This document shows, piece by piece, positions 859 through 18,805 of a stretch of DNA of 64,000 nt. Numbering within the stretch: position 1 is the first letter of the stretch; each line of letters starts with the position of its first letter. A model generated the notes under the pieces. It was given only the letters and a program-made list of their open reading frames with translations. It ran no database searches and was not told where the DNA came from. The DNA comes from Pseudomonas eucalypticola (lineage in GTDB: Bacteria; Pseudomonadota; Gammaproteobacteria; Pseudomonadales; Pseudomonadaceae). A program made the translations under genes and the position numbers. The stretch covers positions 1,272,501-1,336,500 of the forward strand of contig NZ_CP056030.1 of assembly GCF_013374995.1 (NCBI RefSeq). The letters are read 5' to 3'.

Positions 859-882
859 GTTGTTATCTCTTTTGTCGATGAG

Positions 883-3312: not shown

Positions 3313-3864
3313 TCAGGTCTGCGCCAGCCCGTGCAGCGGCGGCAGATATTCATTGCGAACCGGGTAGTCGTGACCCTGGCGGTCGGCAAAGTAGCATTCT
3401 AAGGTACGGCTTACCGTGGGAAAAGCCAGCTCCGCCCAAGGGACTTCGTGCTGGGCAAACAGGCGTACCTCCAGGCTCTCCTCGCCGACGGCGAAATCCA
3501 GGTCGGCCAGTTCGGCGCGGAAGAACACGTGGACCTGGCTAATGTGCGGCAAGTCGAACAGCGTGTACAGCGCCAGTTGGCGCACGCGTGCGCACGCTTC
3601 TTCGTCGGTCTCGCGGGCGGCGGCCTGCTCCAGGGTCTCGCCATTTTCCATGAAGCCGGCCGGCAGGGTCCAGTAGCCGCGGCGCGGTTCGATGGCGCGC
3701 CGGCACAGCAAGATGCGATCGCCCCACACGGGCAGGCAACCGGCGACTATATTGGGGTTCTGGTAGTGAATGAATTCACAGTGCCCGCACACGTACCGCA
3801 GGCGGTTGTCGCCCTGGGGGATGAGCTGGCTGACCGGGTTGCCGCACTGGCTGCAGAATTTCAT
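3313..3864 (-). CDS. NUDIX hydrolase with N-terminal zinc ribbon
   Basis: Starting at ATG 3864 the 183-residue product opens with a zinc ribbon (CSQCG at residues 4-8 and CGHC near 25-28). The NUDIX box follows: GFMENGETLEQAAARETDEEA near residues 70-90 carries the G-x5-E-x7-RE-x2-EE pattern that binds the catalytic metal. The architecture resembles NudC/ADP-ribose-type pyrophosphatases that hydrolyse nucleoside diphosphates linked to another moiety. The open frame extends further upstream to 3918, but the zinc-ribbon Met is the family-consistent start. It is divergent from a second NUDIX gene beginning 117 bp away. The substrate is not predictable from sequence. Confidence 0.85.
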   Translation of the reverse strand: MKFCSQCGNPVSQLIPQGDNRLRYVCGHCEFIHYQNPNIVAGCLPVWGDRILLCRRAIEPRRGYWTLPAGFMENGETLEQAAARETDEEACARVRQLALYTLFDLPHISQVHVFFRAELADLDFAVGEESLEVRLFAQHEVPWAELAFPTVSRTLECYFADRQGHDYPVRNEYLPPLHGLAQT

Positions 3865-3981
3865 CTCGGGTTTCCTGTTCGCTGCGCCTATCTTGGCGCC
3901 AGCGGGCGCGTCGAGCAAGGGGGTTGGGCAGGGCGCGGGTTTGGTGCATGATTGCCCCAGGGCATCGAAAAGAGAGAGACC

Positions 3982-4581
3982 ATGCTGGACGAGCTACTGC
4001 GTCGGATGAGCAGCCACAGGCCACGGACCCTGGAGACCGATCGTCGTTTTCCCGAGGCTGCCGTGCTGATGCCCATTACCCGCAGTGACGAGCCCGAGCT
4101 GGTGCTGACCCTGCGCGCCAAGGGTCTTTCCACTCACGGCGGCGAAGTGGCGTTCCCTGGTGGCCGCCGCGACCCCGAGGACCCGGACCTGGTCTTCACC
4201 GCCCTGCGCGAGGCTGAGGAGGAGATCGGCCTGCCGCCGGGCCTGGTCGAGGTGCTGGGGCCCTTGAGCCCGCTGGTGTCCAAGCATGGCCTGAAGGTCA
4301 CGCCCTTCGTGGGCATCATTCCCGATTTCGTCGAATACCGCGCCAATGACGCCGAGATCGCCGCGGTGTTCAACGTGCCGCTGGCGTTCTTCCGCCAGGA
4401 CCCGCGCGAACATACCCACCGTATCGATTACCAGGGCCGCAGTTGGTACGTGCCCAGCTATCGTTTTGGCGAGTACAAGATCTGGGGCTTGTCGGCGATC
4501 ATGATCGTGGAATTGGTGAACCTGATCTACGACGCGCAAATCAGCCTGCACCGGCCCCCTGAGCGTTTCACCTCAACCTGA
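3982..4581 (+). CDS. NUDIX hydrolase, CoA pyrophosphatase-like
   Basis: A 199-residue protein. Two motifs identify the CoA-pyrophosphatase branch: LTLRAKGLSTHGGEVAFPGG (residues about 43-62), which matches the UPF0035 signature, and the overlapping NUDIX box GGRRDPEDPDLVFTALREAEEEIG. The family hydrolyses CoA or oxidised CoA to 4'-phosphopantetheine and 3',5'-ADP in the cytoplasm. The start at 3982 is chosen because an AGAGAGA ribosome-binding sequence lies just upstream and MLDELL fits family N-termini. An upstream in-frame start at 3952 lacks one. The gene is followed after 42 bp by a co-directional gamma-carbonic-anhydrase-like gene and may be co-transcribed with it. Confidence 0.87.
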   Translation: MLDELLRRMSSHRPRTLETDRRFPEAAVLMPITRSDEPELVLTLRAKGLSTHGGEVAFPGGRRDPEDPDLVFTALREAEEEIGLPPGLVEVLGPLSPLVSKHGLKVTPFVGIIPDFVEYRANDAEIAAVFNVPLAFFRQDPREHTHRIDYQGRSWYVPSYRFGEYKIWGLSAIMIVELVNLIYDAQISLHRPPERFTST

Positions 4582-4623
4582 GCGGACCTGCGAGCCGCCC
4601 TCTGCCTGCCTGAGGACTTACCG

Positions 4624-5148
4624 ATGAAATACCGCCTGGGCGATGCCCGTGTCGAGACGCACCCCGACAGTTGGACAGCTCCCACTGCCACCCTGATCGG
4701 CCGCGTGCGCCTGCAGCAAAACGCCAGCGTGTGGTTCGGCGCCGTGTTGCGGGGTGATAACGAGCTGATCGACATAGGCCCCGACAGCAACGTGCAGGAC
4801 GGCACCGTGATCCACACTGACATGGGCTCGCCCCTGACCCTGGGGCGCGGTGTTACAATTGGCCATAACGCCATGCTGCATGGCTGCACGGTGGGCGACT
4901 ATAGCCTGATCGGCATCAATGCGGTGATTCTCAACGGCGCGAAGATCGGCAAATACTGCATCATCGGCGCCAACGCGCTGATCGCCGAAGGCAAGGAGAT
5001 CCCCGACGGTTCGTTGGTGATGGGCTCGCCTGGCAAGGTCATACGCGAGCTGACCGAGGCGCAGAAAAAGATGCTCGAAGGCAGTGCTGCCCACTATGTC
5101 CACAATGCCCGGCGCTATGCCCGGGAGCTTGAGCCCCAGGAAGACTGA
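4624..5148 (+). CDS. Gamma-carbonic-anhydrase-like hexapeptide-repeat protein (YrdA/PaaY type)
   Basis: A 174-residue protein made largely of imperfect hexapeptide repeats that fold into a left-handed beta-helix (for example [20 protein letters not shown] and [13 protein letters not shown]). The conserved early motif [11 protein letters not shown] and the three histidine positions VIHTD, IGHN and MLHGC match the zinc-ligand arrangement of gamma-class carbonic anhydrases. Many close relatives lack measurable activity, so an actual CO2 hydratase role is not certain. The stop overlaps the start of the next gene by one base (TGATG), which implies translational coupling with the DUF1289 protein. 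Confidence 0.87.
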
Positions 5149-5348
5149 TGACCCAAGAACGCCCCGTCGCCTCGCCCTGCGTGCAGGTGTGTGCCCTGGA
5201 TGACGACGATATCTGCACTGGTTGCCAACGCACGGCCGCCGAAATCACCCGCTGGGGGCGCATGAGCAACGACGAGCGCCGCGAAGTGCTGGTCAAATGC
5301 CACGAGCGCGCCGTGGCCGGCGGTATGATGTTCGTCGCCGGCGCCTGA
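5148..5348 (+). CDS. DUF1289 domain protein, small Cys-containing
   Basis: A 66-residue protein with four cysteines: SPCVQVCALDDDDICTGCQRT (residues 9-26, CxxxC and CxxC pairs). The conserved EITRWGRMSNDERREVL segment follows. This is the DUF1289 signature; the Cys pattern suggests a metal or iron-sulphur site but the function is unknown. It overlaps the preceding carbonic-anhydrase-like gene by one base and is probably translated from the same message. Confidence 0.85.
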   Translation: MTQERPVASPCVQVCALDDDDICTGCQRTAAEITRWGRMSNDERREVLVKCHERAVAGGMMFVAGA

Positions 5349-5405
5349 TTTTTGCTCTTGTGGGCGACCGGCCCTGTTCATTGATGGCATCCGCACCGAG
5401 GCACC

Positions 5406-5882
5406 ATGCTTTTCCTGCTTTCCTATATCGCCAGCGTCGTGCTGATCAACTTCGCCTTCAGTGCCGCGCCGCATCTGGATGTCATCTGGTCGGCCTGGGG
5501 CGGGCTGGTGTTCATCTTGCGCGACATGGTGCAGGCCCGCTTCGGGCACGGCGCGTTCGTCGCCATGCTGGTGGCGCTGGTGCTGTCCTATGTCACCTCG
5601 GACCCGGCCATCGCCCTGGCCAGTGCCACCGCGTTCGGCCTGTCCGAGCTGATCGACTGGCTGGTGTTCACGGTCACCAGGCGCCCCCTGCACGACCGTC
5701 TGTGGATCAGCTCGGCGCTGAGCATTCCGCTGGATACCTTTATCTTCTTCGGCATGATTGGCGCTTTGACCCCGCCGGTGGTCCTCACTGCACTGGGTTC
5801 CAAGTTTGCCGGGGTCACCTGCGTCTGGCTGGCCATGGCCTGGCGGTCGCGTCGCACCACGGCGGCCAGCCGATTGATGTAA
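5406..5882 (+). CDS. VUT family membrane protein (queuosine-precursor-transporter-like)
   Basis: A 158-residue, very hydrophobic protein with about five membrane helices. The segments GGLVFILRDMVQARFGHGA, LSELIDWLVFTVTRRPL and SIPLDTFIFFGMIG resemble the VUT (YhhQ-like) family, whose characterised members take up queuosine precursors. The protein is shorter than E. coli YhhQ, as in many Pseudomonas homologues. The substrate is inferred from family only. The 57-bp leader was examined for a preQ1 riboswitch and none was recognised. Confidence 0.7.
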   Translation: MLFLLSYIASVVLINFAFSAAPHLDVIWSAWGGLVFILRDMVQARFGHGAFVAMLVALVLSYVTSDPAIALASATAFGLSELIDWLVFTVTRRPLHDRLWISSALSIPLDTFIFFGMIGALTPPVVLTALGSKFAGVTCVWLAMAWRSRRTTAASRLM

Positions 5883-5947
5883 AATGGCCGCTTCGGTGGG
5901 CCGCAGCTGGCGGCCTGCGATAACCTCGTTCCCCTTAAGGACCTGAA

Positions 5948-7129
5948 ATGACCCGTATCGGAACTCCACTGTCGCCTACCGCGACGCGCGTACTGCTGTG
6001 TGGCTGCGGCGAGCTGGGCAAGGAAGTCGTGATCGAACTGCAACGCCTGGGCGTTGAAGTGATCGCCGTCGACCGTTATGCCAATGCCCCGGCCATGCAG
6101 GTCGCCCACCGCAGCCATGTGATCAACATGCTCGATGGCGCCGCGCTGCGTGCGGTGATCGAGGCCGAGAAGCCGCACTACATCGTGCCGGAAATCGAAG
6201 CCATCGCCACCGCTACCCTGGTGGAACTGGAGTCCGAAGGCTTTACCGTGGTGCCGACCGCCCGCGCCGCGCAGTTGACCATGAACCGCGAAGGCATCCG
6301 CCGCCTGGCCGCCGAAGAGCTGGACCTGCCGACCTCGCCGTACCACTTCGCCGACACCTTCGAAGAGTACCGCAACGCGGTGCAGGACCTGGGTTTCCCG
6401 TGCGTGGTCAAGCCGGTGATGAGTTCGTCGGGCAAGGGCCAGAGCCTGATCAAGCGCGCCGACGATGTGCAGAAGGCCTGGGACTATGCCCAGGAAGGCG
6501 GCCGTGCCGGCAAGGGTCGGGTGATCATCGAAGGCTTCATCGACTTCGACTACGAGATCACCCTGCTGACCGTGCGCCACGTCGGTGGTACCACCTTCCT
6601 GGCTCCGGTGGGCCACCGCCAGGAGAAGGGCGATTATCAGGAGTCCTGGCAGCCCCAGGCCATGAGCCCGGTGGCCCTGGCCGAGTCCGAGCGCGTGGCC
6701 AAGGCCGTGACCGAGGCCCTGGGTGGCCGTGGCCTGTTCGGCGTCGAGCTGTTCGTGAAGGGTGATCAGGTGTGGTTCAGCGAAGTCTCGCCGCGCCCCC
6801 ACGACACCGGCCTGGTGACCCTGATTTCCCAGGACCTGTCGCAGTTCGCCCTGCACGCCCGCGCCATCCTCGGCCTGCCGATTCCGCTGGTGCGCCAGTT
6901 CGGCCCGTCGGCGTCGGCGGTGATCCTGGTGGAAGGCAACTCCACCCAGACCGCGTTCGCCAACCTGGGCGCGGCCCTGAGCGAGCCGGACACGGCCTTG
7001 CGCCTGTTCGGCAAGCCGGAAGTGGCCGGCCAACGCCGCATGGGCGTGGCCTTGGCGCGTGACGAGTCCATCGAGGCGGCCCGCTCCAAGGCGACCCGCG
7101 CAGCCCAGGCTGTAAACGTAGAGCTGTAA
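5948..7129 (+). CDS. purT: Formate-dependent phosphoribosylglycinamide formyltransferase (GAR transformylase 2)
   Basis: A 393-residue ATP-grasp enzyme of usual PurT length. The N-terminal segment ([29 protein letters not shown]) is the GAR-binding fold. The ATP-grasp core carries [14 protein letters not shown] (about residues 155-168) and the metal-binding end [12 protein letters not shown] (about 278-289). It uses ATP and formate to formylate glycinamide ribonucleotide in purine synthesis. It has a ribosome-binding AAGGA 7 bp before the ATG and appears to stand alone. Codon use is typical for the G+C-rich backbone and contrasts sharply with the island that begins about 100 bp downstream. 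Confidence 0.96.
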
Positions 7130-7228: not shown

Positions 7229-7261
7229 CTCAAATCCTCATCCCGAATTTCTTTCAGGCAC
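7229..7261. repeat. Left copy of a 33-bp direct repeat: fossil of an MFS gene 3' end
   Basis: This segment matches 15235-15267 at 29 of 33 positions in the same orientation. The right copy encodes the C-terminus of the MFS transporter (minus strand, LKETRNEDLS). The left copy, read on the minus strand, still gives LKEIRDEDLS, but the frame runs on without the MFS stop and no MFS gene precedes it. It is therefore a remnant. It marks the left boundary of the A+T-richer island, as expected if foreign DNA was inserted between purT and the MFS gene. Confidence 0.7.
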
Positions 7262-7471: not shown

Positions 7472-8398
7472 ATGACAGAGAATGGCCGATTCAGTTTATC
7501 CAGTGCGGAACTGGAAACATTTCATGAGCAAGGATTCATCGGACCCTTTGATGTGTATCCAGAGGAGGAGATGGAGCGCATTCTGCGAGAATTACGCCCC
7601 AAGCTGCTTGATCAAAGCAATGCGGCTTTCGCAAACCCAAAGTCCTTGTCAGGAAACACCAACCTGTCCAGTTATGACAGGCATCTAGATGTGCCGTTTC
7701 TAGATGCCCATATCCATCGGCCAGAAATAATTGACAGGGTTCGGAGTATTCTGGGCGACAACTTATTGTGCTGGAGGACTGAGTTTTTCCCCAAATACCC
7801 CGGAAATGAAGGCACTGACTGGCACCAGGCTTCTAATTTTGCCAACGTCGCAGGCGATAAAAGGCCCCAGATCGAGTGGCCCAACGGGTCCGACTTTGGC
7901 GGCACCATCACCGTGTGGACGGCGATCACCGACTCAACCATAGACAATGGTTGTCTTCAGTTCATCCCGGGAACGCACCGGGAAATGAACTATGACGAGT
8001 CCAAGGAAATGGAGTACCAATCGGCCAGCATCGATTCGCTTGAAAAAGATGGCGTCAAACGTGGTTTTTTTGGCTACGACTACCGGCAACTGCAAATTGA
8101 TCCAGATTGGCGCCCCGACGAGGCTGCGGCGCGGTCGATGGTGATGAAAGCAGGCCAGTGCATCATTTTCTGGTCAACCTTGATGCACGCTTCTCATCCT
8201 CACAGCGGTAAGACGCAAGCTATGCGCTTGGGGTTCGCCGCCAGGTATGTTCCGACCAGTGTGAAAGTCTATCCGTACTCGAAGAAATTGAGCGAGTTTG
8301 GTGGCCAAGCTGATCTTGAGAAACATGCCTGCGTGTTAGTGAGTGGTAGTAACGAGTACGGGCATAATGTGGTGATAAATTCTACCTTCAAAAAGTGA
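7472..8398 (+). CDS. SyrB2/CmaB-type non-haem Fe(II)/2-oxoglutarate halogenase
   Basis: A 308-residue protein of the size and sequence pattern of SyrB2. Shared landmarks are FIGPFD, the NYDRHLD-like segment [64 protein letters not shown] and FWSTLMHAS. The iron site reads His118-Gln119-Ala120 with distal His239. The carboxylate of the usual HxD triad is replaced by Ala, the established mark of halogenases that bind chloride at iron. Arg252 (MRLGF) matches the 2-oxoglutarate-binding Arg. Characterised members chlorinate aminoacyl groups on a carrier protein, and such a carrier lies two genes downstream. ATG 7472 is chosen because a GAGG ribosome-binding sequence sits 9 bp upstream; the longer frame from 7403 has no family support. 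It is the first gene of the island operon. Confidence 0.93.
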
Positions 8399-8416
8399 AA
8401 TTGGGAGGGGACAGGA

Positions 8417-8866
8417 ATGCCTGAATTGTCGCCATTGATATCTCGGGTAGAGGGTGTTGATCATATTGCTTACGCCACGCGTGACGCAAAAAAAACCGCT
8501 GGGGTTTTTCGGGGGTTGGGTTATGAGATCATTATCGACGGACAGCTTGTTGAGTCACTCAATATTTTCGCTACGAAACTTCAGAACCCAAACGGGGATG
8601 TGATTGAGCTGGTTGAGCCAACAGGGATAGCTCGTTCGCCTGTGGATGGGCTGTTGCTAAATAAGGAATGTTGCCTTTACCACGTGTGTCATCGGGTCAT
8701 GGACTTCGATAAAAGCCTGGAGCGCCTAAAGTCGGCCGGCGCTCTGCTGATCAGCCAACCCTTCGAAAGTCATCTATTTAACGGGTATCGGCACGTCCAC
8801 GTGTATCACCCCATGGTGGGGGTGCTCGAGCTGTTTTCGACCCTGGAAAAAGGAGAAATCAAGTGA
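8417..8866 (+). CDS. VOC-fold metalloprotein, predicted cyclopropane-forming cyclase (CmaC-like role)
   Basis: A 149-residue protein with two VOC (glyoxalase/methylmalonyl-CoA epimerase) half-domains. Potential metal ligands fall at the four usual places: His16 (VDHIAYA), Glu64 (VIELVEP), His89 (YHVCHRV) and Glu138 (GVLELFS). VOC enzymes stabilise a carbanion or enolate next to a carbonyl. In coronamic acid synthesis the protein after the halogenase (CmaC) removes the alpha proton of the gamma-chloro aminoacyl thioester and closes the cyclopropane. I recall CmaC as a metal-dependent enzyme of this superfamily but cannot verify it here. Its place between halogenase and carrier supports the same role. 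It starts 18 bp after the halogenase and overlaps the carrier gene. An epimerase or a resistance function are alternatives. Confidence 0.75.
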   Translation: MPELSPLISRVEGVDHIAYATRDAKKTAGVFRGLGYEIIIDGQLVESLNIFATKLQNPNGDVIELVEPTGIARSPVDGLLLNKECCLYHVCHRVMDFDKSLERLKSAGALLISQPFESHLFNGYRHVHVYHPMVGVLELFSTLEKGEIK

Positions 8867-9081
8867 ACGACAGTGCGGTGGTCGCGGTGTGGGAAGACGT
8901 GTTAGGTCAGAAAGGTGCCAGCATGAACGATGATTTTTTTGAAAGCGGAGGTACATCAATCCAATTGCTTAAATTGTTGCATGAAGTACAGAGTCAGTTC
9001 AGCGTTACTATTGATTTTAACGAATTTTATCTGGCTCCTACACTTGAGCGCTTTGTGCAGTTAGTGAGGGAAAAACAGTGA
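8863..9081 (+). CDS. Free-standing peptidyl carrier protein
   Basis: A 72-residue carrier protein. The phosphopantetheine attachment motif is FFESGGTSIQL with Ser32 as the modified residue, followed by helices typical of NRPS thiolation domains. It starts at GTG 8863, which overlaps the VOC stop (GTGA), with AGGAG 7-12 bp upstream. The predicted job is to hold the aminoacyl thioester while it is chlorinated and cyclised. There is no separate carrier fused to the adenylation protein of this operon, so this should be the only loading site. A phosphopantetheinyl transferase is not in the window and would come from elsewhere in the genome. Confidence 0.9.
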   Translation: MNDSAVVAVWEDVLGQKGASMNDDFFESGGTSIQLLKLLHEVQSQFSVTIDFNEFYLAPTLERFVQLVREKQ

Positions 9082-9103
9082 AGTGCACGCCGCGGAGGCG
9101 GAG

Positions 9104-9844
9104 ATGAATAGGCGCAAAGTCCAAGATGGGGCCGGGGACAGTGTCAATCTCATTTGCCTGCCTTACGGTGGTGCCGGCGCGGCGCTGTTTGATACTTGGC
9201 AAAGTAAACTTCCAGTGGGGGTCCAGGTGCATGGCCTGGACTTGCCTGGAAGAGGCCGTCGCTACAAAGAACCGCCGATCGACGATATGGCTGAACTGAC
9301 TGAGTTTTTGTACTCAACGATTCGTGGTTTGATTGCGGAGCCCTACGTCATTTTTGGGCATAGCCTCGGCGCATTATGTGGTTATCACTTATTAAAATTC
9401 TTGCAGGCGCGGGAAGAACGCCTTCCCTATCATTATATCGCCTCAGGTTGTAGGCCACCTCATCTCCCGTATGCCCATGAAGGCATGTGGCGAGAGAGTG
9501 ATGAGACGTTCCTGAAAAAGGTTGCGAGATTTGGCGGTACACCTAAAGAGGTGATCGCTCAGCCAGCGCTATTCAACGTATTCAGTTCAGTGCTGAAGGC
9601 CGACTTCAGACTGGCGGATTGGTTGTCGGAGAGGCCGGTTGCGCCTATGAAGGATGTGGAGTGCACAGTGTTATATGGTCGTCGTGATCCCATCGTCCCA
9701 GTCGAGCGCTTGAATGAATGGGCTGGTTATTTTGAAAGTGTGAGTTTTGAAATGTTCGATGGTGATCATTTTTTTATGACGTCGAAGGCTGATGAAGTGC
9801 TCTTGGCAGTACGGAGAATTTTGACTCATGGACGGTGGGGGTAG
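9104..9844 (+). CDS. Type II thioesterase (alpha/beta hydrolase), release enzyme
   Basis: A 246-residue GrsT-type thioesterase. It shows LPYGGAGAALF near residue 19, GHSLGA with nucleophile Ser87, GRRDPIVP with the Asp region and FDGDHFFM with the catalytic His. Such enzymes hydrolyse acyl or aminoacyl groups from carrier proteins. With no condensation domain in the operon, it is the likely releaser of the finished amino acid, matching CmaT in coronamic acid synthesis. ATG 9104 is preferred over GTG 9083 because a GGAGG stands 5 bp upstream. The next gene begins 4 bp after the stop. Confidence 0.88.
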   Translation: MNRRKVQDGAGDSVNLICLPYGGAGAALFDTWQSKLPVGVQVHGLDLPGRGRRYKEPPIDDMAELTEFLYSTIRGLIAEPYVIFGHSLGALCGYHLLKFLQAREERLPYHYIASGCRPPHLPYAHEGMWRESDETFLKKVARFGGTPKEVIAQPALFNVFSSVLKADFRLADWLSERPVAPMKDVECTVLYGRRDPIVPVERLNEWAGYFESVSFEMFDGDHFFMTSKADEVLLAVRRILTHGRWG

Positions 9845-9848
9845 AGCG

Positions 9849-10769
9849 ATGAAAGTTTTTGTGTTCTGTGGAGGCATGTCATCGGAGCGCGAGGTTTCCC
9901 TCAAGTCGGGCGCGATGGTAAGGCTTATTCTCGAAAATGCCGGCCGTGACGTCGTGCTCGTCGATACGGCCGCCACGCCCCTAGAGTCGCTAGTGATAAC
10001 GGGCGAAGACTTTGTTTTTTTGGCGCTACATGGAGGTGACGGAGAGAATGGAACGCTACAAAATTATTTGGAGTTACGGGGAATCTGTTATTCGGGGAGC
10101 GGTCCTTTAGCATCGGCGTTGGCCATGCGCAAAGATATCAGCAAAAAAGTCTGGCAGGCGGAAGGTATAGTAACTCCAAGCGCAAGAGTGCTTACCGATG
10201 GTTGGGTGGACGGTGCTTTGGATACTATCCGGTTTCCGGCGGTTGTGAAGCCGACTAGCGAGGGCTGCAGCGTTGGCCTGAGGATAGTGGACAACAAAGC
10301 AGAGTTGCGTCACGCGGTATCAGCGGGTGTTGTTGATTTTGGACGGGTGATGGTGGAGGAGTATATTCAAGGAGATGAATATACGGTGGCCATCCTGGGC
10401 GACAAGGTGTTTTGCCCTGTATTGGTGAAAGCGCCAAGGCGAGCATTTGATTTCTACTCGAAATTCGAATCATTGGAAACTGAATACATTTATGCGCCTG
10501 AAGTGCCCGAGGACGACTTACAGGCGATAAAAGACACCGCCTGGCGCGCCTATACAGCACTTGAGTGTTCGGGTTTCGCTCGGGTCGACATCATTTTTTG
10601 CCGTCGACGCCGCAAACCGTATGTGCTGGAAGTCAATACCCTGCCAGGCATGACGAATCGCAGTATTTTCCTCCAGGCATCATTGCGTGCTGGCTACTCG
10701 GCGGCTCGCGTTATGGAGTTGATTATGGCATATGGTGTCGCCCAGCGTAGTACGAACTCACTCAATTGA
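9849..10769 (+). CDS. D-Ala-D-Ala-ligase-family ATP-grasp ligase with altered second-substrate triad
   Basis: A 306-residue protein of DdlB length and layout. It has GGMSSEREVSL (N-terminal substrate loop, Glu13), HGGDGENGTLQ, the ATP lysine Lys134 in VVKPTSEGCSVG, FARVDIIF with the conserved Arg245, and LEVNTLPGMT for the metals. Aligned by eye to E. coli DdlB, the Glu15-Ser150-Tyr216 triad becomes Glu13-Cys140-Phe206. Tyr-to-Phe at this position is known to shift Ddl toward non-Ala acceptors such as D-lactate. Its place between thioesterase and adenylation genes suggests that it joins two amino acids, one possibly the operon's cyclopropyl product, rather than making cell-wall precursor. Start 9849 follows the GGGGGTAG ribosome-binding region. 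Confidence 0.85.
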   Translation: MKVFVFCGGMSSEREVSLKSGAMVRLILENAGRDVVLVDTAATPLESLVITGEDFVFLALHGGDGENGTLQNYLELRGICYSGSGPLASALAMRKDISKKVWQAEGIVTPSARVLTDGWVDGALDTIRFPAVVKPTSEGCSVGLRIVDNKAELRHAVSAGVVDFGRVMVEEYIQGDEYTVAILGDKVFCPVLVKAPRRAFDFYSKFESLETEYIYAPEVPEDDLQAIKDTAWRAYTALECSGFARVDIIFCRRRRKPYVLEVNTLPGMTNRSIFLQASLRAGYSAARVMELIMAYGVAQRSTNSLN

Positions 10770-10785
10770 TTTCAGGAGGGCAGTC

Positions 10786-12327
10786 ATGGATAGTATTGGG
10801 TCGGAAACCGTGGCTTCCGTATTCGATAAAGTCGCAAGAGCGCGTCTGCATGACGTTGCAGTCATTTATGATGGGCAGTCTGCAACCTATGCCGAACTGA
10901 ACTCGCGTGCCAACAGCATTGCTTCGGGACTTCGTAAGTTGGGTCTTGATCAGCTATCCTCTATTGCAATACTGCTGCCACGGTCAACTGATTTGATTGC
11001 CACCATTTTGGGGGTCGTGAAGGCAGGTATGGTTTATGTTCCATTGGATGCCCAAGCGCCTTTGGAGCGGATAAGGAGAGTATTTAGAAGCGCAGACTGC
11101 CAGCTCGTTATCACTTCTACTGATGGCAGGGCCAAGCTTATTGATTTTCCCTGTTGCGAAGTCGATGAGCTTGAGCGCGCAGGAAGGGGGGCGGTCGCTT
11201 TTACCGAAACTGCAGCATTGGTCGATATGCCGCTATATATAAACTACACCTCTGGGTCAACGGGTAGTCCCAAAGGTGTTATCGTTCGCCATGTGAACGT
11301 CCTGAACTTGGTGCGCGAGCAGCATTACTGCGAGCTGGGGCCGGGAGTGAAGGTATTGCATTTGGCGAATGTTGCCTTCGATGCCACCACGTTTGAAATT
11401 TGGGGGCCACTGCTCAATGGAGGGGTCGTGGTCGTTTGCCCTGAGCAGTCGTTTTCACTTGCGACTATAGCGTCTGTATTACGCCGATATCAGGTCGATA
11501 TTGCCTTTTTGACGACCTCTTTGTTCAATCTGGTCGTTGATAGCTGCCCTAGCGCATTCGAGCCCTTGAAACAGGTGCTGACGGGTGGGGAGATCATGTC
11601 TGCCACGCACGTAAAGCGGTTAGCGGAGCAATATCCCGGGTTGCGCATTACAAACGTATATGGCCCTACTGAATGCACTACGTTTTCTACTTATCATGAT
11701 GTACAGGTGGGGGATTGCCAAGCAGCCAATGTCCCCATAGGGCGGCCGATTGAAAACACAGTCGTTCAAGTAATGGACGATCAGAACGCGCTCGTACCGA
11801 TCGGTGGCGAGGGCGAGATATGGATTGGTGGCCGGGGAGTGTCCAGCGGTTACATCAACAATCCCGCCCTGACGTCAGACGTTTTTATTTTTCTTCCCCA
11901 CGGCACGTTTTACCGCACGGGAGACCTTGGGCGAGTCGGCCGATCTGGGAATATCGAATACATTGGCAGATCGGATGATCAAGTCAAGGTACGTGGCTTC
12001 CGTATCGAATTGGCTGAAGTGCTGAGTGGATTGCTGCGTTGCGCCGCCATCGACCAAGCTTATGTAAGCGTGGAGCTGAATCCGCGTAACGAGAAGGTCC
12101 TGGTCGCGTATGTCGTGGGGCTGGAGTTGGAGGGGGGGAGGATTTCAAGTCAGCTGGCCTCCATACTTCCGGCGTATATGATTCCGTCCGAAATTTACCG
12201 GGTACATCAAATTCCCCTCGGGCCGACCGGGAAGGCGGATCATGGCCAGCTCATCAGAAATCGAGAGCGCAAATTGGTGCTGAGGCCAGCGGAAACCTTC
12301 TTTGGTCCAGGGGACAACCATGATTAA
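10786..12327 (+). CDS. Free-standing NRPS adenylation domain, predicted Ile/Val-type
   Basis: A 513-residue adenylation enzyme with all core motifs: YINYTSGSTGSPKG (A3), FDATTFEIW (A4), NVYGPTECTTF (A5), YRTGDLGR (A7), GRSDDQVKVRGFRIELAEV (A8) and PTGKADHGQL (A10 with the invariant Lys). There is no carrier or condensation domain at the C-terminus. Aligned by eye to GrsA, the ten pocket positions read D-A-F-F-L-G-V-T-F-K, which is close to published isoleucine codes and suggests Ile, allo-Ile or Val. The predicted reaction is ATP-dependent loading of that amino acid on the carrier two genes upstream. An AGGAGG lies 6 bp before ATG 10786. Its 3' end overlaps the next ligase by 8 bp. Confidence 0.9.
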   Translation: MDSIGSETVASVFDKVARARLHDVAVIYDGQSATYAELNSRANSIASGLRKLGLDQLSSIAILLPRSTDLIATILGVVKAGMVYVPLDAQAPLERIRRVFRSADCQLVITSTDGRAKLIDFPCCEVDELERAGRGAVAFTETAALVDMPLYINYTSGSTGSPKGVIVRHVNVLNLVREQHYCELGPGVKVLHLANVAFDATTFEIWGPLLNGGVVVVCPEQSFSLATIASVLRRYQVDIAFLTTSLFNLVVDSCPSAFEPLKQVLTGGEIMSATHVKRLAEQYPGLRITNVYGPTECTTFSTYHDVQVGDCQAANVPIGRPIENTVVQVMDDQNALVPIGGEGEIWIGGRGVSSGYINNPALTSDVFIFLPHGTFYRTGDLGRVGRSGNIEYIGRSDDQVKVRGFRIELAEVLSGLLRCAAIDQAYVSVELNPRNEKVLVAYVVGLELEGGRISSQLASILPAYMIPSEIYRVHQIPLGPTGKADHGQLIRNRERKLVLRPAETFFGPGDNHD

Positions 12328-13414
12328 AAAGACAGTGGCAGTCCTGTGCGGTGGTGCTTCTACTGAGCATAAAGTCTCATTGTTATCTGCCACAAATGTC
12401 GTCCGGGCAATTGATCGCAGTCGCTATGACATCGTGGTGATCGGCATTCGGGAAAGTGGCGAATGGTATGTGCTTGATGCGTCCTCATTCCTGATTGGCG
12501 GTAGCAATCTTGAGTCGGTTCGACCGGCGTTGGAGGGTGCGAGGGTGGCGGTATTGCCGGGTGGAGGGCCGGGCCAATTGCTGGATTTGTCGACCGGCCT
12601 TTTGCTGCCCAAGATTGATGTCGTATTCCCCGCGCTGCACGGAGGTGCTGGCGAAAATGGCGCTTTGCAAGGTCTGTTGTGTTGCCTGGGCATACCGTTT
12701 GTGGGGGCATCCGTACTGGGCTCGGCAATCTGCATGGACAAAGACGTCACCAAGACGCTGCTGGTTGCGGCCGGGTTGCCAGTGGTCCCCTACATACTGG
12801 TGACCCCTGATGCAATAACGACGTACGACGCCGCTGTGCAAGCGCTGGGCTGGCCTTTGTTCGTCAAGCCCGCCTGCCAGGGATCGTCAGTTGGCGTGCA
12901 AAAGGTAAAAAGCCGTGGCGCCTATGAGTCAGCGCTGGTCAAGGCCTTCCGGTATGACCGCAAAGTTTTGGTGGAGTCGGCAATTGACGGTAGAGAAATA
13001 GAGTGTGCCGCTACGGGGTATCGTGAATATGTAACCAGTGGCTGTGGCGAGATAACACCCCATGCCGATTTTTATGGCTATGAGGCCAAGTATTCAGTGT
13101 GTAGTCTGGCGGAGATTAAAGTGCCAGCAACGCTGCCTCCGCAAGTGTCCGAAGAAATCCACCGCCTAACCCAGATCGCTTGGCAGGTGCTTGAATGTTC
13201 GATCATGCTGCGGCTGGATTATTTCGTCACGGTTGATGGCGATGTGTATATCAATGAAGCAAACACTTTACCCGGGTTTACCGACAGCAGCATGTTTCCC
13301 AAGCTATGGAATGTGGAGGGTATCAGCAACGAGGCGTTGGTCAGCAGGTTGCTAGTGTTGGCCGAGGAACGCTTCGTAGACGAGCACAAGCGAAACTATC
13401 CCCGTCATGGCTGA
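12320..13414 (+). CDS. D-Ala-D-Ala ligase of the DdlA type, possible self-resistance copy
   Basis: A 364-residue ATP-grasp ligase close in layout to E. coli DdlA. It shows VLCGGASTEHKVSL (Glu16), DVVFPALHGGAGENGALQGLL, CMDKDVTK, FVKPACQGSSVGVQKV, DFYGYEAKY, a conserved Arg in MLRLDYF and NEANTLPGFTDSSMFPKLW. The second-substrate triad is complete (Glu16, Ser189, Tyr258), unlike the other ligase in this operon. It probably makes genuine D-Ala-D-Ala. A spare Ddl in an antibiotic operon is a known form of self-protection against Ddl inhibitors, which is the working guess; participation in product assembly is the alternative. It overlaps both neighbours by 8 bp. Start 12320 has AGGGGA 5 bp upstream. 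Confidence 0.87.
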   Translation: MIKKTVAVLCGGASTEHKVSLLSATNVVRAIDRSRYDIVVIGIRESGEWYVLDASSFLIGGSNLESVRPALEGARVAVLPGGGPGQLLDLSTGLLLPKIDVVFPALHGGAGENGALQGLLCCLGIPFVGASVLGSAICMDKDVTKTLLVAAGLPVVPYILVTPDAITTYDAAVQALGWPLFVKPACQGSSVGVQKVKSRGAYESALVKAFRYDRKVLVESAIDGREIECAATGYREYVTSGCGEITPHADFYGYEAKYSVCSLAEIKVPATLPPQVSEEIHRLTQIAWQVLECSIMLRLDYFVTVDGDVYINEANTLPGFTDSSMFPKLWNVEGISNEALVSRLLVLAEERFVDEHKRNYPRHG

Positions 13415-14531
13415 GATTCTGATTTCCAGTATGGTGTTCCGATTCGCAGCAGGCGCAATGATTTTTTGCATCACTTGGCGATTTGCATCTCAGGCCGATG
13501 GGGATTACAGGTTGCTAGCGTTTATTCTCTTTTGCTCTTCGGTCCCGGCGCTGCTTGTGCCGATGCTTATGAGGGTGGGCGCTCAACGCAAGAGCGGTCG
13601 TGCATTGTCTGTCACTGCTATCGGGTTGATTGCAGTGGCCTGCGCCGCAGGGACGACTGCCCAAGACTTCGTCGAGGCGTGGGTCCTGCTTAGCTTTGTG
13701 TTGTGGTTGCTGTTTTATGTGTTAGATGCAAGTTTTGACATGTGGCTGGCGGCAGGTGTGTCTGGCCTGGCAGCGCCCGGTGCTCAAAAAGCAGTTGGTA
13801 AGTTTTCGATGCTGAACCAGCTTGCTGTAATGTCAGGTCCGCTCGTAGCAGCGGGGATTATGGCAGGTAGCGGCGACTCGTATGTGCTCGCCGTCCTGGC
13901 GCTGGTCATGCTCGTATTGTTCATCATCTTGAAGTTGCAAGCGAAGGATGGTGGCACTAGCCCACTCGAGTGCGTAGGGAGTCTAGCCAGAATTCCAATA
14001 GCTTTGAGACTTATGCTGGTTCTGTTATGGCCAATTGTTTCCGCAGTGAGCTTCACGCTGCCTGTTACGGTTAGTGAGACGCCTGGCTGGGGCGGTTTCC
14101 ACCTAGCGGTGCTGGAAGCTTTTTTCGGTGCGGCAATGGCGTGTGCGGGAATCGTTGCAGGACGTTGGGAAAGCGAGCGCAGCGCCTGCATTGGGGTGTT
14201 TTCTTGTGCCGCATCTATCGTGGGTTCATTAGCGGCATGGACGCACATGGATCAACTAGCGCCGCGGATCCTGATGGTAATTGGGTTGGGCTTCGCGCTG
14301 GGGAGCATGCGGGTTGTAGCGAAGACGTTGTTGCTAAGAAGCCAGCCTGAGGCAAGCGTTGGTCGCATTGTGGCGCAGTGCAATGGGGTTGGCGTCTGGG
14401 TGACCGCGTTTTTCCTGCTGATGCAACTGGCGCTGGATGAATACTATGGGTTCGTACCCTTTGCACAGCTGCTGTTCGTGTGCCTGCTTGCATTTATGTT
14501 GATCTCCAAGGGTGGCTGGCATCACCGCTAG
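13407..14531 (+). CDS. MFS-type membrane transporter, probable exporter of the operon product
   Basis: A 374-residue hydrophobic protein with about 10-12 predicted membrane segments and the loop pattern of the major facilitator superfamily (ALLVPMLMRVGAQRKSGR after the second pair of helices, and a long central loop near residue 190). No close named relative was recognised. It overlaps the DdlA-type ligase by 8 bp and ends 52 bp before a LysE-like gene, so it belongs to the operon. Export of the product or immunity is the likely role by context. The substrate is inference. Confidence 0.72.
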   Translation: MAEILISSMVFRFAAGAMIFCITWRFASQADGDYRLLAFILFCSSVPALLVPMLMRVGAQRKSGRALSVTAIGLIAVACAAGTTAQDFVEAWVLLSFVLWLLFYVLDASFDMWLAAGVSGLAAPGAQKAVGKFSMLNQLAVMSGPLVAAGIMAGSGDSYVLAVLALVMLVLFIILKLQAKDGGTSPLECVGSLARIPIALRLMLVLLWPIVSAVSFTLPVTVSETPGWGGFHLAVLEAFFGAAMACAGIVAGRWESERSACIGVFSCAASIVGSLAAWTHMDQLAPRILMVIGLGFALGSMRVVAKTLLLRSQPEASVGRIVAQCNGVGVWVTAFFLLMQLALDEYYGFVPFAQLLFVCLLAFMLISKGGWHHR

Positions 14532-14583
14532 CGATCCGTTTTCAAGGATGTAATCGCGAGCGTATTGATATCAAGGAAGTGAT

Positions 14584-15150
14584 ATGTCAGGCCTCATATG
14601 TTTCCTGCTGTTTTCAGTCCCCGGTGCGTCTAATGTCCTGGTGTTTTTGCTATGCCGCCACGCGAAGACCAGTCGCGTGATGGCCGGCGTCTTGGCCGTT
14701 TTAGCTGGTGCGGGCGTATCGCTCACAATGTGGTCGGTACTTGCATCATTTGAGTGGCGCGGTGCGGTGGTCGTTGCGTTATTGCTTAAATTGGTTGCTG
14801 CTGGGGTCATTGCCGGGATGGCTGGAAAATGGTGGGTGAAATCTTGGTCCGATGAAGAGATGTTGACGGTTTCCGCGCCCGAATTGATCCCGCTATTCAG
14901 CGTTTCCTTGCTCAACCCCAAAATAATGATTGCTGCATTCTATTTTCTCTCACCCATGCCTGGCAGTGGGGAGGCGGGCATAGTGCTCGGAATCATGGCT
15001 TTCGCAGGTTCCATGGTGGTGTGGGGTACCGTGGGACGTCTATCCACCCGCTATGCTTTAGGAGGGCTCAAACCCAAGTGGGGCGCACGTCTGGTTTCCT
15101 GTTGCATGGCTTTCTTTTCGCTGTTCATCGTCTGGGAGGCGCTGTCTTGA
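14584..15150 (+). CDS. LysE/RhtB-family amino acid exporter-like protein
   Basis: A 188-residue protein with about five or six membrane helices. The N-terminal SVPGASNVLVF is the LysE-family PGP/N motif in variant form, and SLLNPKIMIAAFYFLSP matches the family's conserved NPK segment. LysE/RhtB proteins export amino acids and small dipeptides. As the last gene of the island operon it could secrete the cyclopropyl amino acid itself. AGGAAGTG just upstream of the ATG serves as ribosome-binding site. Divergence from typical LysE members is clear, so the substrate is unknown. Confidence 0.72.
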   Translation: MSGLICFLLFSVPGASNVLVFLLCRHAKTSRVMAGVLAVLAGAGVSLTMWSVLASFEWRGAVVVALLLKLVAAGVIAGMAGKWWVKSWSDEEMLTVSAPELIPLFSVSLLNPKIMIAAFYFLSPMPGSGEAGIVLGIMAFAGSMVVWGTVGRLSTRYALGGLKPKWGARLVSCCMAFFSLFIVWEALS

Positions 15151-15221: not shown

Positions 15222-16535
15222 TTATTTGACGAGGCTCAAATCCTCATTCCGCGTTTCCTTCAGGCACAGCACCGCCAGCACGCTGAGCAGTGCTGCCGCC
15301 GATACATACCCGCCCACCCAGCTTAGCCCCCCCAGGCTCACCAGCTTCTGCGCCGCGAACGGCGCGGCCGATGCGCCGACGATACCGCCCAGGTTATAGG
15401 CCGCCGAAGCCCCGGTGTAGCGCACTCGCGTAGGGAACAGTTCCGGCAGCAGGGCGCCCATGGGGGCGAAGGTAAAGCCCATCAGGAACAATTCGATGCT
15501 CAGGAACAGGGCCACGCTGGTGGTCGACCCCTGGGTCAGCAACGGCTCCATGGCGAAGCCCGAAGCAATCGCCAGCACACCGCCCAGTACCAGCACCGGC
15601 TTGCGCCCGAAGCGGTCGCTCAAGGCTGCGGAGATCGGTGTCGCCAGCGCCATGAACAGCACCGCGAAACACAGCATGCCCAGGAAGCTTTCACGGCTGT
15701 AACCCAGGGTGGCGACGCCGTAGCTCAGGGAAAACACCGTGGAGATGTAGAACAGCGCGTAGCACACCACCATGGAGGCCGCGCCCAGCAGCATGGGCCG
15801 CCAGTACTGGGCGAACAGTTCCACCAGGGGCAGTTTCAGCCGCTCGTGCTGGGCCATGGCCTTGGCGAATACCGGGGTTTCCTCCAGCTTCAGGCGTACA
15901 TACAGGCCCACCATCACCAGCAGGGCGCTCAGCAAGAAGGGCAACCGCCAGCCCCAGGCGCGGAATTGCTCGTCGCTGAGCAGCACGGCCAGGCTCAGGA
16001 ACAAGCCGTTGGCGGCGAGAAACCCGATGGATGGCCCCAACTGCGGGAACATCCCGAACCAGGCCCGCTTGCCCTTGGGAGCGTTTTCGGTGGCCAGCAG
16101 CGCCGCGCCGCCCCATTCGCCGCCCAGCCCCAGGCCCTGGCCGAACCGCAGCACGCACAGCAGAATCGGCGCCCAGGCGCCTATTTGGTCATACCCGGGC
16201 AGCACACCGATCAACGTGGTGCAAATGCCCATCAACAGCAACGAAGCCACCAGGGTCGACTTGCGCCCCACCCGGTCGCCGAAATGGCCGAACAACGCCG
16301 AACCCAAGGGGCGGGCCAGGAAGGCAATGCCAAAGGTGAGAAAGGCCGAGAGCATTTGCGCAGTGGCCGAACCCTGGGGGAAGAACACCGGGCCGATCAC
16401 CAGGGCCGCGGCCGTGGCATACACGTAGAAGTCGTAGAACTCGATGGCCGTGCCGATGAAGCTGGCGGTCGCCACCCGGGCGGTGGAGTTGAGCGGCTGG
16501 TCGGTGCCGCTGGCAGCGTAGGTGCTGGTGCTCAT
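15222..16535 (-). CDS. MFS transporter, metabolite:H+ symporter (MHS) family
   Basis: A 437-residue, 12-helix transporter. The MHS subfamily is recognised by FIGTAIEFYDFYVYATAAAL near the N-terminus and FGHFGDRVGRKSTL (loop 2-3 motif), repeated as ALSDRFGRKPVL in the second half. Members take up small carboxylates or osmolytes such as 2-oxoglutarate, shikimate or proline/betaine; the substrate here is not predictable. Start 16535 has AGGGA upstream and begins the family-like N-terminus; the frame extends further without support. Its last 33 bp are duplicated at 7229-7261, on the other side of the island. Confidence 0.88.
   Translation of the reverse strand: MSTSTYAASGTDQPLNSTARVATASFIGTAIEFYDFYVYATAAALVIGPVFFPQGSATAQMLSAFLTFGIAFLARPLGSALFGHFGDRVGRKSTLVASLLLMGICTTLIGVLPGYDQIGAWAPILLCVLRFGQGLGLGGEWGGAALLATENAPKGKRAWFGMFPQLGPSIGFLAANGLFLSLAVLLSDEQFRAWGWRLPFLLSALLVMVGLYVRLKLEETPVFAKAMAQHERLKLPLVELFAQYWRPMLLGAASMVVCYALFYISTVFSLSYGVATLGYSRESFLGMLCFAVLFMALATPISAALSDRFGRKPVLVLGGVLAIASGFAMEPLLTQGSTTSVALFLSIELFLMGFTFAPMGALLPELFPTRVRYTGASAAYNLGGIVGASAAPFAAQKLVSLGGLSWVGGYVSAAALLSVLAVLCLKETRNEDLSLVK
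15235..15267. repeat. Right copy of the 33-bp direct repeat (3' end of the MFS gene)
   Basis: This copy is inside the MFS coding sequence and encodes LKETRNEDLS close to its C-terminus. It matches 7229-7261 at 29 of 33 positions, same orientation, and brackets the island. Confidence 0.7.
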
Positions 16536-16722
16536 TGCAGAATCCCTGGCAGTCGTGCTCCCGCGCTGGGGCGGGGCGAATTTATTATGTGTGCGGGGCA
16601 GGGTGGGCCGCAGGAGAAGGGCCGGTACACCTCCAGGCGGGTAGCAGGGGCGGCGGCAGTTGGCTGGGTAAGCCGGCTCGATTATAGGAAGGGGGGTGAA
16701 GGGCGTCCAGACCGACGGTGGT

Positions 16723-16739
16723 GGCGCCCACAAGGCGCC
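16723..16739 (-). terminator. Hairpin after the CorB-like gene
   Basis: GGCGCC at 16723-16728 and 16734-16739 with a 5-nt loop, 7 bp past the stop of the minus-strand CBS protein gene. There is no T-run, so it is only a weak terminator candidate. Confidence 0.3.
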
Positions 16740-16745
16740 GCCCCT

Positions 16746-17981
16746 TCAGGCCAGTTTGGGCAAGCTGCTGGTGTGCCAGATCAGCACCCGGGTCACGCGG
16801 TTCTCCTCGGCCTGCAGAATCTCCAGCCGGTAGCGGCCGATCTTCAGGCACACCGCGCAGTCAGGAATGCTCTCCAGGGCTTCGGTGACCAGACCGTTGA
16901 GGGTCTTGGGACCGTCGCTGGGCAAGTGCCAGCCCAGGGTCTTGTTCAGCTCGCGTATGGACGCCGCGCCCTCCACCACGAAGCGCCCGTCGGGTTGAGG
17001 GTGTACGTGGGGGTTGTCCATGCTGTGTTCTTCTTCGAACTCGCCGACGATTTCCTCGAGGATGTCCTCCAGGGTGACGATACCCTGTACTTCGCCGTAT
17101 TCGTCCACGACGATGCCCAAACGCCGTTGCTGCTTGTGGAAGTTCAGCAGTTGCAGGTGCAGCGGGGTGCTTTCCGGCACGAAGTAGGCGTCGTAACAGG
17201 CGGCCAGCAGGGCCTGCATGGTCAACTCGCCGTTGGGCAGCAAGTGGCTGACCTGACGGGTGTTGAGGACCTTTTCCACCTGGTTGATATCGTTGTGGTA
17301 CACCGGCAGGCGGGTGTGGCGGCTGATGATCAACTGTTCAGCGATCTTTTCGATCGGGTCGTCCAGGTTCAGCCCGTCCACTTCACTGCGCGGCACCAGA
17401 ATGTCGTTGACGGTGATGCGGTTCAGCGCCTGCAAGCCGCCGAGCAGGTGCGGTTCGTCTGGTGTTTCATCGTCCTGGTCGCCTTCGGGCTCGGGGTGAT
17501 CGTCGTCATCGTGCTGCCGGGCAATGGGCGTGGCCACGGGGGCGAAGGGCTTGAGCAGCAGGCGGGCAATGCCGCTGAACGGCCACACCAGCGGGTACAG
17601 CAGCTTCAGTGGCAGACGCAGCAGCGAGTTGCCCAGGCCGATGAAGGGTTCGGGGTAGCGCCGTGCCAATAGGCGCGGCAGGTACTCGCAGAAGGTCACC
17701 AGCAGCGCGGCCATGATCAGGCCGCCCAGCCACAGGCCTTTGACGTGCCAGTGGTACACCGCCAGGAACACCCCCAGCACAACCACCAGCACCCGGCACA
17801 GGGTGTTGCACAGCACCAGGCTTTCCAGCGGAAACGCTAGGCTGGGCCGCTCGCCTACCTTGCGCCGGGTGCGCAGGGCGGCCAGGTGGTTGCGGGCTGT
17901 CTCGACACCCGTGAACAGGGCCGACCAGAGCATCGACAGCAGCACGACGCCCAGCATCGAGCCCAACGGCAGATTGTCCAT
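16746..17981 (-). CDS. CorB/HlyC-type membrane protein with DUF21 and CBS domains
   Basis: A 411-residue protein. Order: N-terminal DUF21/CNNM membrane domain with about three to four helices (residues 1-140), an acidic linker (HDDDDHPEPEGDQDDE), a CBS pair (about 190-320, with ILVPRSEVDGLNLDD, TRLPVYHNDINQVEKVL and VVDEYGEVQGIVTLEDILEEIVGE) and a C-terminal CorC_HlyC domain. Such proteins are implicated in magnesium or cobalt efflux and resistance. The next gene on the strand, encoding a CcsA-fold membrane protein (YpjD), begins upstream with an 11-bp gap; this yfjD-ypjD pairing next to ffh is also seen in enterobacteria. Confidence 0.9.
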   Translation of the reverse strand: MDNLPLGSMLGVVLLSMLWSALFTGVETARNHLAALRTRRKVGERPSLAFPLESLVLCNTLCRVLVVVLGVFLAVYHWHVKGLWLGGLIMAALLVTFCEYLPRLLARRYPEPFIGLGNSLLRLPLKLLYPLVWPFSGIARLLLKPFAPVATPIARQHDDDDHPEPEGDQDDETPDEPHLLGGLQALNRITVNDILVPRSEVDGLNLDDPIEKIAEQLIISRHTRLPVYHNDINQVEKVLNTRQVSHLLPNGELTMQALLAACYDAYFVPESTPLHLQLLNFHKQQRRLGIVVDEYGEVQGIVTLEDILEEIVGEFEEEHSMDNPHVHPQPDGRFVVEGAASIRELNKTLGWHLPSDGPKTLNGLVTEALESIPDCAVCLKIGRYRLEILQAEENRVTRVLIWHTSSLPKLA

Positions 17982-17992
17982 TTACTCGCCCG

Positions 17993-18805
17993 TCAGATGT
18001 GCAGAATGTATTCGCGGACCAGCTTGCTGCCGAAATACGCCAGCATCAGCAGGCAGAAGCCGGCCAGGGTCCAGCGGATGGCCTTGTGGCCGCGCCAGCC
18101 CAGGCGGTTGCGGCCCCACAGCAGCACGCTGAACACGATCCAGGCCAGGCACGCCAGCAGGGTCTTGTGTACCAGGTGCTGGGCAAACAGGTTCTCGACG
18201 AACAGCCAGCCGGAAATCAGCGACATCGACAACAGCGCCCAGCCAGCCCAGAGGAAGCCGAACAGGAGGCTTTCCATGGTTTGCAGGGGCGGGAAGTTCC
18301 GGATCAGGCCGGCGGGGTGCTTATGCTTGAGCTGGTGGTTCTGCACCAGCAGCAACAGCGCCTGGAACACCGCGATGGTGAACATGCCGTAGGCCAGGAT
18401 CGACAGCAGGATATGCGCGAGCATCCCCGGCTCTTCGTTGATGAGCGGCACGGTACCCTTGGGAATGAACTGCGCCACCAGGGTGGTCAGGGCGCCCAGC
18501 GGGAACAGCAACAGCAACAGGTTTTCCACCGGGATGCGCGTGCAGGCGATCAGTGTCAGGGCGATCACCGCCGCGGAAATCAGACTGGCGGCGCCGAAGA
18601 AGTCCAGGCTCAGGCCAAGCGGGGTCATCAGCTGGAATTTCAGCGCGATGCCCTGGGCCACCACGGCGAGGGTGCCGACGAGGTAGAGAAGGCGTTTGTC
18701 CACCGTCTCCCGCTGGTTCACGCGGGTGCCGTGGTAGACGGTCGCAGCGGCATAAAGGAAGGCGGCGGCGAGGCTGGGTAGCAAACTGGGTGACAAGGGG
18801 AGCAT
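17993..18805 (-). CDS. Cytochrome c assembly (CcsA/HemX-fold) inner-membrane protein YpjD
   Basis: A 270-residue integral membrane protein with about eight helices. The CcsA-like core includes LAHILLSILAYGMFTIAVFQALLLLVQN (about residues 125-152) and SLISGWLFVENLFAQHLVHKTLLACLAWIVF, with His positions typical of the haem-handling fold. In gamma-proteobacteria this gene (ypjD/corE) is linked to a CBS transporter gene and ffh, as here, and has been tied to cobalt/magnesium resistance. A true cytochrome c assembly role is not established. Confidence 0.85.
   Translation of the reverse strand: MLPLSPSLLPSLAAAFLYAAATVYHGTRVNQRETVDKRLLYLVGTLAVVAQGIALKFQLMTPLGLSLDFFGAASLISAAVIALTLIACTRIPVENLLLLLFPLGALTTLVAQFIPKGTVPLINEEPGMLAHILLSILAYGMFTIAVFQALLLLVQNHQLKHKHPAGLIRNFPPLQTMESLLFGFLWAGWALLSMSLISGWLFVENLFAQHLVHKTLLACLAWIVFSVLLWGRNRLGWRGHKAIRWTLAGFCLLMLAYFGSKLVREYILHI

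Follow-up and report, generated by a model that had tools for sequence, protein, structure and literature searches.

A nine-gene operon of Pseudomonas eucalypticola joins coronamate-type genes to two D-Ala-D-Ala ligase homologs

The window analyzed here is a stretch of 64,000 nucleotides of Pseudomonas eucalypticola (contig NZ_CP056030.1, positions 1,272,501 to 1,336,500; host genome of 6.4 Mb in two contigs). It contains a nine-gene operon that is a horizontally acquired biosynthetic cassette: genes for a halogenase, a CmaC-like VOC protein, a carrier, a type II thioesterase and an adenylation protein stand together with genes for two homologs of D-Ala-D-Ala ligase (Ddl), referred to below as the short and the long Ddl, and for two membrane proteins. 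Our preferred reading, to which we assign a probability of just under one half (about 0.48), is that the operon makes a cyclopropyl amino acid, that the short Ddl ligates it and that the long Ddl gives self-resistance.

From the gene content and the homologies we infer the following chemical steps, with their substrates and the order of ligation. The adenylation protein would take one of the aliphatic L-amino acids Ile, allo-Ile and Val as its substrate, activate it and load it onto the stand-alone carrier; the halogenase would chlorinate the gamma carbon of the carrier-bound amino acid; the VOC protein would take the alpha proton and close the ring with loss of chloride; and the thioesterase would free the 2-alkyl-1-aminocyclopropanecarboxylic acid. 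The short Ddl, altered at its substrate end, would then join this cyclopropyl amino acid to a second amino acid, most likely D-Ala. The long Ddl would most likely sustain the supply of D-Ala-D-Ala in a cell whose regular ligases are inhibited by the product, and would less likely add a further residue, while the two membrane proteins would export the product.

A sequence-only reading of this DNA had placed nine densely packed, co-directional genes on the forward strand at 7472-15150. All nine reading frames were recovered, open, at these positions. Three pairs of neighbours overlap, by 4, 8 and 8 bp, and the other intergenic gaps measure 1-52 bp; the gene starts given in Table 1 are the most likely ones. 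The gene identities that had been proposed are borne out by family matches for seven of the nine; the MFS match is weak, and a Pfam search with the last gene (14584-15150) gave nothing up to E 10, so that its label 'LysE-like' derives from motifs recognized by eye. The domain scores and the orthologs rule out mis-called genes or a chance array, and the open reading frames and intact motifs rule out a decayed operon. Scans of the operon for promoters and terminators gave results near chance level.

The two ligase homologs

The cell has a DdlA and a DdlB of its own, to which both Ddls are additional; the long Ddl and this DdlA compare at 47%. The sequence-only reading had not distinguished between the two operon Ddls, which are of separate origin and fall into different subfamilies (best models PRK01372 and PRK01966); self-resistance is a possible role of the long one. 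Since these best models differ, a recent duplication was ruled out as the source of the pair.

The short Ddl was compared with a background of 117 listed homologs, kept separate from the three operon orthologs, at the 38 columns that are conserved in at least 97% of them. It breaks three of these columns: S150C, Y216F and P284L (numbering of E. coli DdlB, verified on the K-12 protein). The residues S150, Y216 and P284 are present in 117/117 background proteins, and all three changes are common to the three operon orthologs. The background proteins break 0 (101 proteins), 1 (14) or 2 (2) of the columns, and the cell's own DdlB breaks none; its own DdlA, which belongs to the other subfamily, breaks four yet retains S150, Y216 and the proline at 284. 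A count of 3/38 is modest by itself, and therefore it is the identity of the changed positions that matters. Ligases restricted to D-Ala-D-Ala are described as sharing Ser150 and Tyr216, and DdlB in which these two were exchanged is reported to have acquired a weak D-Ala-D-Lac activity (PMC7691350); the short Ddl has Cys and Phe at these positions. It retains E15, K215, R255, D257, E270, N272, G276 and S281 as well as the Ddl fold domains. The change D69N, found in both operon Ddls, was dropped as evidence, Asn being present also in 22 of the 117 background homologs. We take the short Ddl to be a probable biosynthetic ligase. It is a natural case of change at just those residues by which D-Ala-D-Ala specificity has been explained, and so a ready test of the gain of new substrates by a cell-wall ligase.

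The peptide ligation that the sequence-only reading had proposed is supported by this unusual active site, and by precedent: the Ddl homolog of the tabtoxin pathway (PMC3927611) and the ATP-grasp ligases of the mangotoxin pathway (PMC13185094) show that small peptides are assembled in this way in Pseudomonas. The ligation itself is a predicted step.

The long Ddl differs from its background at 21 of 125 conserved columns (20 in P0126), where the maximum among 118 background proteins is 9 and the cell's own DdlA differs at 1. It retains E15, S150, K215, Y216, R255, D257, E270, N272, G276 and S281. The strand that holds R255 is remodelled: near this residue, 84 of the 118 homologs read G/V-L/M-A/S-R-V-D, the other 34 falling outside the search pattern and standing uncounted, and both orthologs read I-M-L-R-L-D. 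We take the long Ddl to be either a self-resistance enzyme, as has been proposed for a Ddl in the D-cycloserine cluster (PMC6804068), or a second ligase. Should it be an insensitive copy, its presence in the operon would identify the target of the product. An extended form of our preferred reading, speculative and unlikely, is that the operon represents a new class of D-dipeptide antibiotics made without the condensation step of nonribosomal peptide synthetases: a cyclopropyl amino acid, arising through cryptic chlorination, would be joined to D-Ala by the converted Ddl (S150C/Y216F/P284L), the product would mimic D-Ala-D-Ala and block cell-wall ligation, and the remodelled second Ddl would be the insensitive copy of the target.

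The same two proteins allow other readings. Both Ddls may be biosynthetic and act in turn, yielding a tripeptide or depsipeptide with a cyclopropyl amino acid and leaving the exporters as the sole resistance. Although unlikely in our estimate, this is a serious rival because of mangotoxin, the two ATP-grasp ligases of which are described as jointly giving tripeptides (PMC13185094); it also agrees with the remodelling of both operon Ddls and with the weak D-Ala-D-Lac activity of DdlB changed at Tyr216 and Ser150 (PMC7691350). It fits less well that the long Ddl retains the tested catalytic residues, as expected of a D-Ala-D-Ala enzyme, and that the operon shows no recognisable gene for making a hydroxy acid. 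Distinctly improbable is a pathway that ends in the free amino acid, cyclopropyl or chlorinated, as an antimetabolite of the alanine type, with both Ddls as resistance enzymes less sensitive than those of the cell itself. Coronamate-type cassettes without ligase do exist (the cma genes and the flavoprotein-type operons lack a Ddl in their vicinity, 0 of 49 loci), and D-cycloserine provides a precedent for self-resistance by a Ddl (PMC6804068), but S150C and Y216F alter specificity residues that a housekeeping-type function should retain, and two resistance Ddls would be redundant.

The proposed ring-forming enzymes

The halogenase carries the HQA motif and the distal His, and aligns over nearly its full length with SyrB2 (2fct; E 3e-124). 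In a 45-row tree with an arbitrary root, its nearest rows by path are four halogenases from operons with an acyl-CoA dehydrogenase, referred to as flavoprotein-type operons: two from Pseudomonas (70%), one from B. cenocepacia (64%) and one from Streptomyces CL7 (66%). The supporting six-row set (98/95) also includes L072, one very long branch. CmaB and the window halogenase compare at 49%, and the seven CMA rows form a separate clade (100/100) without the window protein.

The adenylation code, numbered with a GrsA fragment, is DAFFLGVTF in the window and identical in three flavoprotein-type loci (L041, L062 and L063), the proteins being 37-39% identical; the same code despite this low identity argues for the same substrate. 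The code is of an aliphatic type, presumably resembling the published isoleucine codes, and differs from that of CmaA (DAFLYGGVF). For coronamate as for kutzneride, the first step of biosynthesis is described as chlorination of the gamma-methyl group in isoleucine diastereomers (PMC8407142). Two sister operons from Pseudomonas (L041 5402-12009 and L042 5130-11731) encode a halogenase, carrier, thioesterase, adenylation protein, acyl-CoA dehydrogenase and LysE, with a GntR-like regulator and nearby integrase-like genes, both recognized by eye. Sister operons with the same code and another candidate for ring closure offer a direct comparison of two cyclopropane routes.

In tblastn the VOC protein matches CmaC of nine Pseudomonas plasmids (36.6% identity, E 7e-22, with 85% of the query covered). 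It also matches, at 40% identity, a protein of Azospirillum, the gene of which comes after a CmaB homolog. The other 11 of the 21 records were 10 from Rahnella (29-31% among the matches listed) and one from Sinorhizobium. Two of the VOC relatives, from Rahnella (L064) and from Pseudomonas (L075), are surrounded by genes for ketosynthase III, an AMP-ligase and an acyl-CoA dehydrogenase, and were set aside as belonging to ketosynthase/AMP-ligase clusters, that of Rahnella being unrelated. H16, E64, H89 and E138 stand unchanged in each of six sequences; residues of this kind bind the metal in VOC proteins. By sequence the protein is a CmaC homolog, of the type that acts in the cma pathway; a paper by Kelly (2007) reportedly terms CmaC 'aminocarboxycyclopropane-forming' in its title. 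The analogy to coronamic acid drawn by the sequence-only reading thus stands for the CmaC homolog, the carrier-type halogenase, the carrier, the aliphatic-type code and the thioesterase, and fails for the halogenase clade, which is not that of CmaB, for CmaE and for the carrier domain fused to CmaA, both of which are absent.

Several points weigh against the proposed pathway. No recognisable racemase gene is present in the operon, and the D configuration that the sequence-only reading thought probable for the partner is a conjecture; the tree places the halogenase nearer to its flavoprotein-type counterparts than to CmaB; the VOC protein is just 36% identical to CmaC and weakly matches the methylmalonyl-CoA epimerase model TIGR03081 (35 bits, cut-off 115); the 21 changed columns of the long Ddl exceed what a plain spare copy would need; and the two ligases of mangotoxin, by analogy, make a tripeptide route with two ligases a live alternative. 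One of the VOC proteins, methylmalonyl-CoA epimerase, works on a thioester at its alpha carbon. The VOC protein might accordingly epimerize the amino acid on the carrier instead of closing a ring, and so give a D gamma-chloro amino acid, the kind of substrate that a Ddl-type ligase requires, with a chlorinated D-dipeptide as product; this would explain the missing racemase and the source of the D-configured partner, and it agrees with the weak match to TIGR03081 and with matches to glyoxalase-type PDB chains (E 5e-7), but the closest named relatives of the VOC protein are CmaC, beside CmaB-type halogenases, and the short Ddl is without the Ser/Tyr pair of ordinary D-Ala-D-Ala ligases. We give this reading a slim chance, which it owes to the distance between the VOC protein and CmaC.

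Rarity and distribution

Relatives of the operon proteins are few. A search of 5.8 billion proteins with the VOC protein gave four relatives at E ≤ 0.001 (99, 89, 89 and 49% identity), one of the two at 89% being from Pseudomonas putida. The short Ddl has three relatives at 83-99%, followed by others at no more than 45% (best 120 of 1238), and the long Ddl two at 86-100%, followed by others at no more than 51% (best 120 of 5260). The records suggest that the P. putida orthologs of the VOC protein, the short Ddl and the long Ddl share one contig (342,023 bases).

Halogenase homologs occur in 39/398 genomes of the genus (E ≤ 1e-40) and in 4/398 genomes of the phylum (E ≤ 1e-50), the own genome being counted in both, and in 28 plasmid records, the surroundings of four of which were read. 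Near the halogenases in 49 loci (flanks of 6-12 kb in 15 of them and of about 1.5 kb in 34, some overlapping in place) neither Ddl was matched at E ≤ 1e-3. Scanning the genome contigs with the short Ddl retrieved five Ddl loci at 33-37% identity. The scans with the VOC alignment gave matches in 2/398 genomes of the phylum and 8/398 of the family, which beyond the own genome comprised two cma loci and five loci near AMP-ligase genes (G104 in both scans); the VOC protein alone, compared with 57 relatives, matched the own genome and four weak places. Cyclopropanation by a halogenase and a VOC protein and ligation of the Ddl type were not found together in the clusters examined. The sequence-only reading knew of no described cluster of this combination, and likewise no halogenase-plus-Ddl cluster was found in the literature that we searched, which excluded most subscription journals.

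Genomic setting

The operon forms an insert of 8 kb with low GC in the Pseudomonas chromosome, flanked by purT on one side and by a resident MFS gene on the other. The surrounding gene order is purT - MFS - CorC/CNNM - cytochrome c assembly - ffh, in keeping with the genus. The GC content of the operon genes is 0.44-0.55, and that at third codon positions 0.54-0.61 in eight of them (the carrier gene left out), as compared to 0.79-0.89 in the genes at 1-7129 and 15222-20375. In 10 of 18 relatives of the same genus purT adjoins the resident MFS gene, at 47-114 bp (between BLAST ends), the remaining 8 having no MFS match inside the 1.5 kb examined beside purT; in the window the stop codons of the two genes are 8,092 bp apart. 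The low GC and the adjacency of purT and MFS in relatives therefore indicate that the nine genes were acquired together, by insertion where the MFS gene ends, and the GC contrast together with the P. putida orthologs of the VOC protein and both Ddls identifies it as no chance array. A 33-bp direct repeat brackets the insertion and duplicates a stretch of the MFS gene's 3' end; it may be an attachment or recombination site and a mark of the insertion event. No integrase is found among the nine operon genes.

Table 1. Features of the operon and of the insertion edges (positions in the window; bits with cut-off in brackets).
Feature	Position	Strand	Basis
33-bp direct repeat, left copy	7229-7261		88% identity
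Carrier-type Fe(II)/2-oxoglutarate halogenase	7472-8398	+	TIGR01762 413 bits (226)
CmaC-like VOC protein, putative ring-closing enzyme	8417-8866	+	Glyoxalase_4 42 bits (27)
Stand-alone carrier protein	8863-9081	+	PP-binding PF00550 51 bits (20.8); serine site GGTS
Type II thioesterase	9083-9844	+	PF00975 118 bits (26.4); motif GHSLG
Short Ddl homolog (DdlB subfamily), putative peptide ligase	9849-10769	+	PF07478 and PF01820; S150C, Y216F, P284L
Stand-alone adenylation protein	10786-12327	+	TIGR01733 376 bits (317); code DAFFLGVTF
Long Ddl homolog (DdlA subfamily), putative self-resistance enzyme or second ligase	12320-13414	+	PF07478 and PF01820
MFS-like putative exporter	13407-14531	+	PF07690 23.5 bits, under the Pfam cut-off (33.4)
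Small membrane protein	14584-15150	+	LysE-like by motifs seen by eye
33-bp direct repeat, right copy	15235-15267		within 3' end of resident MFS gene (15222-16733, -)

Elsewhere in the window, two overlapping genes of low GC at 53301-55638 (reverse strand, GC 0.54-0.57) constitute a putative Septu-like anti-phage pair, assigned by family match only (best PADLOC matches PtuB, E 2e-35, and PtuA, E 1e-49), and a two-partner secretion transporter of the ShlB/FhaC type is encoded at 883-2538 (reverse strand, 217 bits).

Comparison with known systems

The cma operon of Pseudomonas shares homologs of the VOC protein (CmaC), the halogenase, the carrier, the adenylation protein, the thioesterase and the small exporter gene with the window operon, and differs in the clade of the halogenase and in the adenylation code. 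It has in addition CmaE and a carrier domain fused to CmaA, neither of which is present in the window operon; both are present in the cma locus that we compared (L061), the carrier domain of CmaA being there presumed from the length of the protein. The halogenase tree and the missing CmaE rule out a plain cma operon. Coronafacate ligase is described as the enzyme that links coronamate to coronafacic acid (PMC4228168), where the window operon has Ddl homologs instead. A coronamate-type operon outside Pseudomonas was observed on a megaplasmid of Azospirillum B510 (L060 8166-13117), with homologs of cmaD-E-A-B-C-T (CmaB 73%, CmaC 59%).

The flavoprotein-type operons have in common with the window operon the nearest halogenases, separate carrier and adenylation proteins and, in the three loci named above, the same code; they differ by an acyl-CoA-dehydrogenase-like protein in place of the VOC protein and by having no Ddl. 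We take them to be of the kind of the kutzneride allocoronamate genes, KtzA-KtzD. The D-cycloserine cluster is not known to involve halogenase or cyclopropane chemistry. What it shares is a Ddl in an antibiotic cluster, for which self-resistance together with a transporter has been proposed (PMC6804068). A Ddl homolog was also taken into biosynthesis as MysD in the clusters of mycosporine-like amino acids (PMC8472315), the product of which is unrelated; this likeness is by description.

The mangotoxin (mbo) cluster is likewise small and from Pseudomonas, with a tailoring oxygenase for an amino acid and two ATP-grasp amino acid ligases; it is set apart by its description, which in the available part of the source names no halogenase, carrier or VOC protein (PMC13185094). 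Tabtoxin has TblF, a ligase similar to D-Ala-D-Ala ligase in an antimetabolite pathway of Pseudomonas (PMC3927611), and differs by its beta-lactam chemistry; here too, TblF was likened by description. Because the window operon has a VOC protein of the CmaC type and the halogenase and adenylation code of the flavoprotein-type operons, it is, as far as its sequences tell, a mosaic coronamate-type cassette, a member of neither group. In its proposed logic it would resemble a coronamate pathway that supplies an ATP-grasp ligase. What is new in it is the combination of known kinds of enzymes, one of which has an active site that none of its 117 near homologs has.

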